Source of the DNA: Prochlorococcus marinus CUG1416
Lineage (GTDB): Bacteria; Cyanobacteriota; Cyanobacteriia; PCC-6307; Cyanobiaceae
Direction: 5' to 3'
Assembly (NCBI RefSeq): GCF_017695965.1
Contig: NZ_JAAORM010000005.1
Location: 248,001-312,000 of the forward strand
Length of the DNA: 64,000 bases
Shown here: positions 31,647-49,029 of the stretch, one piece after another
Layout: each line of letters begins with the position of its first letter
How positions within the stretch are numbered: position 1 is the first letter of the stretch
Notes under the pieces: model-generated
What the model saw: the letters and a program-made list of their open reading frames with translations, nothing else
The model's database searches: none
What the model was told of the DNA's origin: nothing
Made by a program: the position numbers and the translations under genes

Positions 31647-31830
31647 CCAAAGGCGGCGAAGATTTGGCGTCAAGGAATTATGAGTAGATATCTGTATGTT
31701 GGTTAAAAAATTTTGTTGCTTGAGAACTTTTTAATTAAATTATTTTTTAATTTAATTTATAAATAAATTACTAAAAATAAGCATTTATACTCACGATAAG
31801 TAATTTTACTCAGTAAGATATTATTAGCAT

Positions 31831-31919
31831 TTAGGAAGTGCTTAGCTGGTTAACAACAGAAAATCTGAATTTAACTAGGTCGTCATGAGCTTGCCGGTGG
31901 GATACTTGCAAGCTTTTTT
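31831..31919 (+). ncRNA. Candidate small RNA with GGGATA-loop terminator (copy 2)
   Basis: TATTAT at 31819-31824 could be a -10 box. The following ~85 nt contain GGTTAA...TTAACT and CAGA-AAA-TCTG pairings and end in AGCTTGC-(13 nt with GGGATA)-GCAAGCT plus six T. No ORF. Nearby AT-rich 31650-31800 and 31920-32057 hold nothing else I can support. Confidence 0.5.
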
Positions 31920-41683: not shown

Positions 41684-41794
41684 ATGATGCAGCTCCTGAG
41701 CTTGCTCAAGTCCCCGTCCTATGGCTTGAGTCGTACTGCGGTCTATCTTAAAGGCAGATCGGACGATTTTGTAACATTTGCTACACTCTATTAA
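41684..41794 (+). other. G+C-rich island: small ORF or structured RNA
   Basis: About 45% G+C in a 30% background. It can be read as a 36-aa frame (ATG 41684: SPSYGLSRTAVYLKGRSDD) or as structured RNA with CTCAAG/CTTGAG and GTC-ATCT/AGAT-GAC pairings. The 41126-42366 stretch has no other gene. Confidence 0.35.
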
Positions 41795-45119: not shown

Positions 45120-45401
45120 ATGACTATTTTTATTGGAAATTTATCTTGGGAAACTGAAGTTCAAGATCTTGAACAACTTTTTAGTAATTATGGAGTAGTA
45201 AAGAAATGTTATTTACCTCTTGATAGAGAAACAGGCAGAAAAAGAGGTTTTGCATTTGTAGATTTAAATGATCAAAATTCTGAGAAAAAAGCTATTGACG
45301 ATCTTCAAGATGTTGAATGGATGGGAAGAGAGATAAGGGTCAATGAGGCTGAACAAAGAAAAGGACCCATTAATAAAAAACGCAATAAGTTTGATAAATA
45401 A
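45120..45401 (+). CDS. RRM-type RNA-binding protein
   Basis: 93 aa from ATG 45120; the frame's upstream extension to 45054 is not needed. RNP2 TIFIGNLSWE at the start and RNP1 RKRGFAFVDL near 42, with a short basic tail KKRNKFDK. Cyanobacterial Rbp proteins of this kind are often cold- or stress-induced and bind mRNA near membranes. Monocistronic, DUF1330 gene 130 bp upstream. Confidence 0.93.
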   Translation: MTIFIGNLSWETEVQDLEQLFSNYGVVKKCYLPLDRETGRKRGFAFVDLNDQNSEKKAIDDLQDVEWMGREIRVNEAEQRKGPINKKRNKFDK

Positions 45402-45530: not shown

Positions 45531-45585
45531 ACCCATACCACCTCACACTTTCCGTAATAGAAAATTTGATGGATAATGAATTTAT
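45531..45585 (+). repeat. CCCATACC box, copy a
   Basis: CCCATACCACCTCACACTTT, then TCCGTAATAGAAAATTTGAT and GGATAATGAATTTATA. Diverged copy of the element better preserved at 63205 (TTTCCTAAATAGGAAC). Confidence 0.5.
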
Positions 45586-45598
45586 ATTTTAGAAAGTT

Positions 45599-45642
45599 AT
45601 CCAAACTTTATCCAAACTTTATTCAAACTTTATTCAAACTTT
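45599..45642 (+). repeat. Four 11-bp phased direct repeats
   Basis: ATYCAAAC begins at 45599, 45610, 45621 and 45632, exactly 11 bp apart, each followed by TTT. Tandem, in-phase arrangement typical of a protein-binding array. Confidence 0.7.
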
Positions 45643-45659
45643 AAAAAAAGAATAAAAAA

Positions 45660-45689
45660 AGCAGCCCTAAGTGTGAGGAGTGGGCTGCT
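45660..45689 (-). terminator. Porin 3' hairpin with Yfr1-like loop
   Basis: Minus strand AGCAGCCC-(14 nt loop)-GGGCTGCT followed by TTTTTTT. The loop contains ACTCCTCACAC, the invariant motif of the cyanobacterial sRNA Yfr1. It also complements the porin's own 5' UTR (AGTGTGAGG at 47049-47041). Confidence 0.75.
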
Positions 45690-45691
45690 TT

Positions 45692-45724
45692 AGAAGCCCA
45701 AACCTATTAGAGGATTGGGCTTCT
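45692..45724 (-). terminator. Porin first 3' hairpin
   Basis: AGAAGCCCAA / TTGGGCTTCT, 10 bp, with inner CCT/AGG pairing. It directly follows the porin stop and precedes the T-tailed second hairpin. Confidence 0.7.
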
Positions 45725-45742
45725 AATTATTTTAAATTGGTT

Positions 45743-47032
45743 TTAGAACTTGAAAGTAGCATCTACACCAATAACGGTACGATCATATAGATAGAAAGCT
45801 AAATCATTATTTTCAGCGACAAGATCAGCAGAATCCTGATTTCTCATAGTAAACGCAAAGCCTGGTGTAATCGTCAAGGAATCATTAACATCATAAGTGT
45901 AATAAACCTCGATAAAACTTCCCAAATCATCATTCTCAATCTCAGTACCATTTAAGTCAGGAATTTTGAAGAAAGGAAAAGTTTTATAAGAAGCAGATAA
46001 AGTTCCAGCTCCTAATTCTCTATCAACTGATAACTGAAAATCATTAAATGTATCAATATTTGCTCCACTGATATCTGCATCAACAAAACTTGAAGTAGCG
46101 CTTAAAGTTGTTTTTTCGTTTGGGCTGTAATATGCTCCAAAGGTAGTAGCACTATAGCCTTCATCCAATATTGCAGATATTCCGTAATCATCACAAACGG
46201 AAATAGCATATTTATCAGCAAGAGAACAAAGTGAATCAGAACTTTGATAAACAATTCCTCCACCATAATTATCAGCGTCATAGCCTAATGAAAGAGTAGT
46301 AATATCAATACCTTCTTCAGTAAGAATTCCACTTGTAGTAGATGCATCAGTACCAATAATACTTGCAGAAGCATTTAATCCACTATCAAAAGTTCTTCCC
46401 ACTGCCACACCAGCTCCTGTACCTTGACTCGTAAAATAATTAGAATCTAAACTATATTGGCTTGCAAAGAAAAATGAATCAGAATATTTTGATGTCGTTG
46501 TAGGCATTAAGTCATCACTATCTAATTTTGGACCTACAGCTATGTAATAATCTCCAATAGGAAATTCATAATACATTGAAGTCACACTTAAAGTATCTGC
46601 TCCATCACCAGAACTATCTAAAGTAAAATCTACAGACGTTGAAGAGTTTCCAGTTTCAATTCCGACATAAAGATTATCGTCTCCTGTAAAAGAAGTATTC
46701 AAGTCAATATCGTAAGAGTAAGTAGCTGTCAATGCTTCGGTTATTCCAGACCCATCAACACCACCAACTTGGAAAGAAGCAGATCCGCTCATTGTAGTTG
46801 TTTCTGAGAAAGAACCAGCTTCAAAATTATTTAATTTAGCTTCTAAGCCATCTACGCGACTATTAGTTTTTGCAATTTCTTTAGCAGGATTAAATTCAGT
46901 AATGCTTTCGACTTTGTCTTTAGAAGAATAACCAGACATCTCATCCAAGCTAAGCTCATTAGCTGAAGCTGAAATAGGAGCAAAAAGTCCTAATACTGCA
47001 GGAGCAATTAATAGTTTTTGAAATAGTTTCAT
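45743..47032 (-). CDS. Outer-membrane porin (cyanobacterial som type)
   Basis: 429 aa. Signal peptide MKLFQKLLIAPAVLGLFAP ending near ASA-NEL, short linker (VDGLEAKLNNFEAG) and a beta-barrel with alternating aromatic/polar strands and terminal ...GVDATFKF (C-terminal Phe, typical of outer-membrane proteins). Passive uptake of nutrients. In MED4, two such porins are published Yfr1 targets; the 5' UTR here has the matching GTGTGAGG 9 nt upstream of the ATG. Confidence 0.88.
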   Translation of the reverse strand: MKLFQKLLIAPAVLGLFAPISASANELSLDEMSGYSSKDKVESITEFNPAKEIAKTNSRVDGLEAKLNNFEAGSFSETTTMSGSASFQVGGVDGSGITEALTATYSYDIDLNTSFTGDDNLYVGIETGNSSTSVDFTLDSSGDGADTLSVTSMYYEFPIGDYYIAVGPKLDSDDLMPTTTSKYSDSFFFASQYSLDSNYFTSQGTGAGVAVGRTFDSGLNASASIIGTDASTTSGILTEEGIDITTLSLGYDADNYGGGIVYQSSDSLCSLADKYAISVCDDYGISAILDEGYSATTFGAYYSPNEKTTLSATSSFVDADISGANIDTFNDFQLSVDRELGAGTLSASYKTFPFFKIPDLNGTEIENDDLGSFIEVYYTYDVNDSLTITPGFAFTMRNQDSADLVAENNDLAFYLYDRTVIGVDATFKF

Positions 47033-47040
47033 AAAAATAG

Positions 47041-47049
47041 CCTCACACT
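47041..47049 (-). promoter_or_regulatory. Yfr1-type pairing site at the porin ribosome-binding site
   Basis: Minus strand AGTGTGAGG (47049-47041), 8 nt from the ATG. Complementary to CCUCACAC of Yfr1. Pairing would block ribosome entry, as shown for related porins in Prochlorococcus. Confidence 0.7.
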
Positions 47050-48199: not shown

Positions 48200-48416
48200 A
48201 TGTCAAGGATTTTGGCTCTTTACTACCATAGTTCCAAATCCAGCGTTTGCTGAATATTTTGAAGCATTTCAAGCTTGTATCGAATCAGTAGTTTGTTATG
48301 TATTTGCAAAAGATATAGATTGTCAAAATTAGGAACGTAAAGGTTGTAAATTTGCAGTAATTTTTAGGTTCCCATCCAATTAAGCTGCAATTGATTTTAA
48401 AAAAATTAGTTTATAA
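48200..48416 (+). pseudogene. Decayed DUF1330 gene
   Basis: After a frameshift at the start (ATGTCAAGG versus ATGTCTAAAGG) it reads FWLFTTIVPNPAFAEYFEAF and VFAKDIDCQN, then TAG, and a second in-frame TAA later. Clear relative of the intact gene at 55997. Upstream sequence is also shared. Confidence 0.85.
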
Positions 48417-49029
48417 GAATTGTTTGAGATCCATCTTTGTTATCTGTTACGATTATTTTTTTATCTGGAAATGAGTGAGATAATAATCTTTTCAAATTTT
48501 TGTTTTTGTTTGAGATTATATATTCATTTTCTTTAGCATTAGTTTTCTCTATCTTGATCAGTTGCAACTTCTTCAAAAAAGCAATCCTCTCTTCTTCTTT
48601 AGCTTTCTCTATAGCTAGCCTATCTTCTTCTTTAGCTTTCTCTATAGCTAGCCTATCTTCTTCTTTAGCTTTCTCTATAGCTAGCCTATCTTCTTCTTTA
48701 GCTTTCTCTATAGCTAGCCTATCTTCTTCTTTAGCTTTCTCTATAGCTAGCCTATCTTCTTCTTTAGCTTTCTCTATAGCTAGCCTATCTTCTTCTTTAG
48801 CTTTCTCTATAGCTAGCCTATCTTCTTCTGCAACGACATCATCATTAGATTTGTTTTCAATCAACAATTTCTTTTGGTCTTTCAAAAGTAATTCGACCAA
48901 TTCTTTTTTAGTTTTACGACTATATAAGTGAAGTGATAATTTTTTTGCTTCTAGACGTATTTCTCTGAAGCTTAATTTAAGTAACTTATCTTTTTTGTTT
49001 TCATCATTATCAAGGAGATTTTTAATCAT
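48406..49029 (-). CDS. Rho-N/SAP-like protein with seven 11-aa repeats
   Basis: 207 aa. N-terminal LSFREIRLEAKKLSLHLYSR, KTKKELVELLL resembles the Rho-N/SAP nucleic-acid-binding helices. Residues about 70-146 are seven identical copies of EEDRLAIEKAK, a strongly charged single alpha helix or coiled coil; then a Lys-rich region and an exposed beta-like C-terminus (KIIVTDNKDGSQTILIN). Overlaps the end of the DUF1330 pseudogene. Confidence 0.7.
   Translation of the reverse strand: MIKNLLDNDENKKDKLLKLSFREIRLEAKKLSLHLYSRKTKKELVELLLKDQKKLLIENKSNDDVVAEEDRLAIEKAKEEDRLAIEKAKEEDRLAIEKAKEEDRLAIEKAKEEDRLAIEKAKEEDRLAIEKAKEEDRLAIEKAKEEERIAFLKKLQLIKIEKTNAKENEYIISNKNKNLKRLLSHSFPDKKIIVTDNKDGSQTILIN
48600..48830 (-). 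repeat. Seven tandem 33-bp repeats
   Basis: Exactly 7 x 33 bp, nearly identical at nucleotide level, encoding EEDRLAIEKAK. High identity implies recent expansion by slippage; copy number probably varies between strains. Confidence 0.9.

Follow-up and report, generated by a model that had tools for sequence, protein, structure and literature searches.

The porin gene and its terminator

The window, by which we mean the whole stretch of 64,000 nucleotides that was analysed, belongs to a 1.67 Mb Prochlorococcus genome with about 6 porin genes (7 tblastn matches in 6 places). One of these porins lies within the window, and the following features are associated with it:

45743-47032 (-): porin open reading frame of 429 aa with an OprB-like C-terminal barrel (from the list of open reading frames; Pfam OprB, 4e-6)
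47041-47049 (-): AGTGTGAGG, predicted Yfr1-type target that overlaps the ribosome-binding site of the porin and ends 8 nt before the ATG at 47032
45691-45725 (-): second hairpin, after the stop codon and just upstream of the terminator (from the fold)
45654-45692 (-): Rho-independent terminator of the porin mRNA, a hairpin with arms at 45682-45691 and 45658-45667, then a T-tract
45671-45681 (-): ACTCCTCACAC, the Yfr1/Yfr10 undecanucleotide in the terminator loop (exact 11-mer match)

The terminator is made up of the arm AAAGCAGCCC, the 14-nt loop ACTCCTCACACTTA, the arm GGGCTGCTTT and the T-tract; it folds with -16.1 kcal/mol (z -4.8) and all 11 bases of ACTCCTCACAC in its loop are predicted to be unpaired (P 0.99-1.0). 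The initial annotation had pointed out that the loop is identical to the core of Yfr1, and the match is indeed exact over the complete 11-mer. A promoter for a separate sRNA upstream of the hairpin was not found above the shuffled background, and a hairpin with its own promoter was rejected on that ground.

Various other elements were recorded in the surroundings: a tandem repeat of TTATCCAAACT (4.3 copies, 45597-45643) directly past the porin terminator; a convergent gene for an RRM-type RNA-binding protein (45120-45401, (+)), which was given no role because the neighbourhood comparison showed that it is not retained next to the porin in other genomes; an open reading frame (48406-49029, (-)) encoding (AKEEDRLAIEK)n from a 33-bp coding repeat (48586-48829, 7.4 copies, 99% identity); and Rfam matches to Yfr20 (31825-31914, (+)) and to the glutamine-II riboswitch (41705-41768, (-)).

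The 11-mer occurs once in the window and was not obtained in any of 100 dinucleotide shuffles. Genome-wide there are 3 copies: one in an Rfam Yfr10 match beside Yfr2 (L001, 56 bits), one in an Rfam Yfr1 match beside trxA (L002), and the one in the porin terminator loop, which gives no Rfam Yfr1 match and no Yfr10 match at E up to 0.1. Most Prochlorococcus genomes contain 2-3 copies, and most of the extra copies inspected elsewhere either belonged to Yfr10/Yfr18-like hairpins, whose stem is TCAGAAA, or lay within genes. One genome (G024, loci L126-L129) has 5 copies, of which that at L126 is Yfr1-like and 4 are TCAGAAA-stem hairpins, an expanded set of the Yfr10/Yfr18 type. The third copy in strain MED4 is Yfr18 by Yfr5 (PMC2518516, PMC2190773), and the published target work, done on that strain, could therefore not meet a porin-terminator element.

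The likeness to Yfr1 that had been proposed for the 3' end holds for the sequence; the structure is nearer to that of Yfr10, with the motif inside a hairpin loop. Like Yfr1 (RF01116), the porin element combines the 11-mer ACUCCUCACAC with (here predicted) porin mRNA targets, but the motif of Yfr1, whose gene lies by guaB/trxA (here L002), is located in an unpaired linker between two stem-loops. A search based on the Yfr1 fold (PMC2190773) would miss the porin element since its motif is inside the loop. In Yfr10 (RF02362; MED4 relative Yfr18) the 11-mer is likewise unpaired in a large hairpin loop, on a stem of 8 bp (PMC6778093). Yfr10, however, has a gene of its own, adjacent to Yfr2, and ends in a second hairpin that serves as terminator, whereas here the motif hairpin is itself the terminator of the porin mRNA; nor does the porin element share the position of the Yfr10 gene, which in high-light strains has a Yfr2 homologue as its neighbour.

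Conservation and loss of the motif hairpin

The initial annotation had suggested that conservation of the loop in porin terminators be checked. A covariance-model search of 266 Prochlorococcus genomes recovered the hairpin in 6, each time right after this porin subfamily; 4 of the hairpins are motif-perfect, with ACTCCTCACAC as in the window (L005, L006 and L008 being the others), one matches at 10/11 positions (ACTCCCCACAC, L007) and one has decayed (L004). Of two more matches near E 0.01, one was a copy already counted, read on its reverse strand, and the other a motif-less porin terminator. The loop is thus conserved in one subfamily and lost in several relatives, and a wide distribution of the hairpin among porin terminators was rejected (6/266 genomes). 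The exact hairpin pattern was found in 4 genomes of the genus, and a generic motif-plus-terminator pattern in the same 4 with one additional match, which looks like an in-gene site known from other genomes; apart from this lone match the generic pattern revealed no other terminator with the motif in the genus. With a looser pattern applied to 400 genomes of the family only scattered matches appeared outside the genus, similar in number to those of the reversed control, and the hairpin was not found in viral contigs. Every orthologue that retains the motif hairpin has it as a Rho-independent terminator, with hairpin and T-tract 3' of the stop codon. The second hairpin (45691-45725) is absent from the aligned orthologues and therefore falls outside the conserved element.

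The porins of L005, L006 and L008 have an amino-acid identity of 57-61% with the window porin, and their four-fold sites are near saturation (identity 0.46-0.55; random 0.41). The upstream untranslated sequence has also diverged among the orthologues, L005 and L006 having 19 nt in common there. Since the last 15 codons match those of the window porin at only 56-69%, a recent gene conversion at the 3' end was rejected as the cause of the conservation. The L005 and L006 porins are mosaic (first 50 codons 90% DNA identity, remainder 53-69%), which points to recombination at the 5' end. The upstream neighbours of the window porin are shared by L006 and L007 only, L005 and L008 being found in other surroundings; as the neighbour genes vary among the loci and the pair of porin and hairpin stays, the two move as a pair.

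The loops of the hairpin carriers (14-16 nt) stand out from those of other porins at comparable protein distance, which measure 4-5 nt (mean 4.5) and have at most 6 loop bases in common in 1975 pairs, against 11 in the carriers. More distant porins of the group have the same AAGCAGC/GCTGCTT arms with a loop of 4 nt. A long loop is hence unnecessary for termination, and something else must maintain the 11-mer. A chance occurrence of the motif was rejected on the basis of the shuffles, the silent-site divergence, the loop control and the genus-wide scan. At the level of sequence comparison, the presence of the motif seed and selection on it can be considered shown.

Several relatives have nevertheless lost the motif. 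The porins most closely related to that of the window (G105, G019, G020) have it in decayed form or lack it; remnants of the hairpin persist in G003 and G017; and among further members of the porin group, found by protein search, it is absent from G019, G020, G060, G181, G021 and G119. In the porin tree the motif occurs in two subclades, with low support for the deep nodes, and porins that lose the motif tend towards longer branches (small sample). The distribution suggests that the motif is probably ancestral and was lost several times; a single origin is likely, at the weak support of the deep nodes. These losses, together with the relatives that have the same arms and a 4-nt loop, fit an ordinary terminator whose loop motif has no present function, being either left over from an old Yfr10-like hairpin or acquired by chance and kept by descent. 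We regard this as quite improbable: the 11-mer is exact in 4 lineages although silent sites are near saturation and the 3' coding ends have diverged, the loop is unusually long, and no other terminator of the genus was found to contain the motif.

The conserved hairpin could also act from the opposite strand, where a convergent transcript with GUGUGAGGAGU in the loop would be a decoy for Yfr1/Yfr10. The reverse-complemented loop is a perfect predicted Yfr1 site and the hairpin of G142 is T-tailed on both sides, but such a T-tract is confined to G142, and the convergent neighbours vary among the genomes, whereas the side on which the porin lies does not change. This arrangement seems to us extremely unlikely.

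Predicted pairing partners of the two ends

At the 5' end, the presence of AGTGTGAGG over the ribosome site was borne out (47041-47049, (-)), and comparison supports the proposal that this leader is of the Yfr1 target type: GTGTGAGG adjoins the start of 80/81 porin ORFs and of 0/473 neighbouring non-porin ORFs. The count covers 80 porin loci retrieved through protein similarity, and the sole porin ORF without GTGTGAGG is a fragment. In its own genome GTGTGAGG-N(2-9)-ATG occurs 9 times (4 porin starts, 2 Yfr1/Yfr10 complements and 3 others), and the reversed control of this pattern gave 0 occurrences. The complement of CCUCACAC lies over the porin ribosome site, as expected of a Yfr1 mRNA target; in the window porin the site is partly folded, with an opening cost of 6.1 kcal/mol. 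In MED4, the porins PMM1119 and PMM1121 have been proven to be targets of Yfr1, repression being established for those two only, and Yfr1 repressed a reporter carrying the PMM1121 leader 4.7-fold, an effect that was cancelled by Yfr2 (PMC6778093). Most porins that have lost the 3' motif still keep the 5' target, which fits the use of this target by Yfr1 itself. The Yfr1-type site at the ribosome-binding region is a near-universal mark of Prochlorococcus porins, beyond the two MED4 genes.

A second AGTGTGAGG is found at 45534-45549 (-), some 105 nt past the terminator and with a weak promoter match (45614-45586) upstream. An ATG follows 4 nt on and opens a frame of 7 codons (MGLFMTY). The arrangement resembles the leader of a porin gene with the porin itself missing, and is possibly a decoy or a remnant.

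The complementarity between the terminator loop and the porin's own 5' UTR, to which the initial annotation had drawn attention, is exact over 9 nt (CCUCACACU/AGUGUGAGG); a seed complementary to the own mRNA is a mark of 3'-UTR-derived autoregulatory sRNAs. The predicted pairing energy, calculated as the loop hybrid energy plus the opening cost, is -8.4 kcal/mol for the own leader and -7.6 to -13.2 kcal/mol for three other porin leaders, about equal to the values for Yfr1 and Yfr10. RNAcofold predicted hardly any gain, or none, from pairing the hairpin with its targets; since this program has no means of joining a closed loop to a second strand, loop energies and opening costs were used in its place.

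With an exact 9-nt match within one mRNA, the loop might pair in cis only, circularising the molecule and masking the start site. The 5' partner sequence is, however, common to nearly all porins, the match drops to 8 nt in orthologues, and the loop flanks showed no covariation with each strain's own 5' UTR among the orthologues. Furthermore, the initial ACU of the conserved 11-mer would be unused, and a pure cis function is in our opinion very improbable. A general mimic of the Yfr1 type, acting on other porin mRNAs and on Yfr2, is favoured because the 11-mer is longer than the 8-9 nt that pairing with the porin's own 5' end would require.

The length of the motif also bears on the possibility that the loop is a sponge, with a Yfr2-family sRNA as its main partner. 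In that case the porin mRNA would titrate Yfr2, more Yfr1/Yfr10 would be free and porins would be repressed only indirectly. The conserved 11-mer exceeds the CCUCACAC that is needed for porin 5' ends; its CU/CUCCU part is predicted to pair with Yfr2, for which there are two Yfr2/Cyano-1 genes in the genome, both outside the window (an Rfam search detected none within it); and Yfr1/Yfr10 are bound more tightly by Yfr2 than by mRNA (PMC6778093). The 11-mer of Yfr1 serves mRNA targets as well, however, so that its length does not discriminate, and titration of Yfr2 requires an abundant mRNA. The predicted pairing of the loop with Yfr2, at -15.8 kcal/mol and over 10 bp interrupted by one bulge, is slightly weaker than that of Yfr1 and Yfr10 (-16.9 kcal/mol). 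We consider the sponge unlikely.

A putative 3'-UTR riboregulator

The reading that we prefer, with a probability of roughly 0.5, is that the porin 3' end is a mimic of Yfr1/Yfr10 that exerts a negative feedback on porin translation, be it that of its own mRNA, of other porins, or via Yfr2. That the 3' end could mimic Yfr1 had been raised in the initial annotation, and the genome comparison supports it. The terminator loop would offer the Yfr1/Yfr10 pairing motif in single-stranded form, in the manner of Yfr10. RNase E would probably free the 3' end within the AU-rich sequence that separates the stop codon from the hairpin, and the stem and the U-tail would protect it. Its CCUCACAC could then pair with GUGUGAGG on its own and other porin mRNAs and block the start of translation, and it might also bind Yfr2-family RNAs, by which Yfr1/Yfr10 would be freed. 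By either route, production of the porin mRNA would result in a negative feedback on porin synthesis.

The release of an RNA by this 3' end, and regulation by it, we infer, release by RNase E from the known cases of OppZ and CarZ (PMC7398697) and ApcZ (PMC8136909). The proposed logic is like that of OppZ and CarZ of Vibrio cholerae, mRNA 3' ends that repress the translation of their parent transcripts (PMC7398697), and the porin element shares the Rho-independent terminator of its parent mRNA, as 3'-UTR-derived autoregulatory sRNAs do. OppZ and CarZ are experimentally shown and act with Hfq, whereas the porin element has the seed of a conserved separate sRNA family. ApcZ of the Synechocystis apc operon is, like the porin element, a cyanobacterial 3'-end RNA that uses the terminator of the mRNA, but its target is another gene, ocp, and not its own mRNA family (PMC8136909).

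To our knowledge ApcZ has no Yfr1 motif. A porin 3' end of the present type was not found in the relevant passages of searched papers that contain the 11-mer or mention Yfr10. By the Rfam models the porin element falls outside the families Yfr1 and Yfr10, and we regard it as a candidate 3'-UTR riboregulator that carries the Yfr1 motif.

Somewhat more tentatively, and with a little less than an even chance, we propose that a target gene of a conserved sRNA has captured the active site of that sRNA in its own terminator, so that a single mRNA would be target at the 5' end and regulator at the 3' end. The existing Yfr1-porin GFP reporter provides a ready test bed. If the proposal is true, expression of an accessory porin would silence that porin and other porins and would feed into the Yfr1/Yfr2/Yfr10 network. 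An organism that has very few protein regulators would thereby possess a compact feedback loop. It would also represent a way for an sRNA network to spread, in which a target mRNA acquires the seed of its regulator in its own 3' end.
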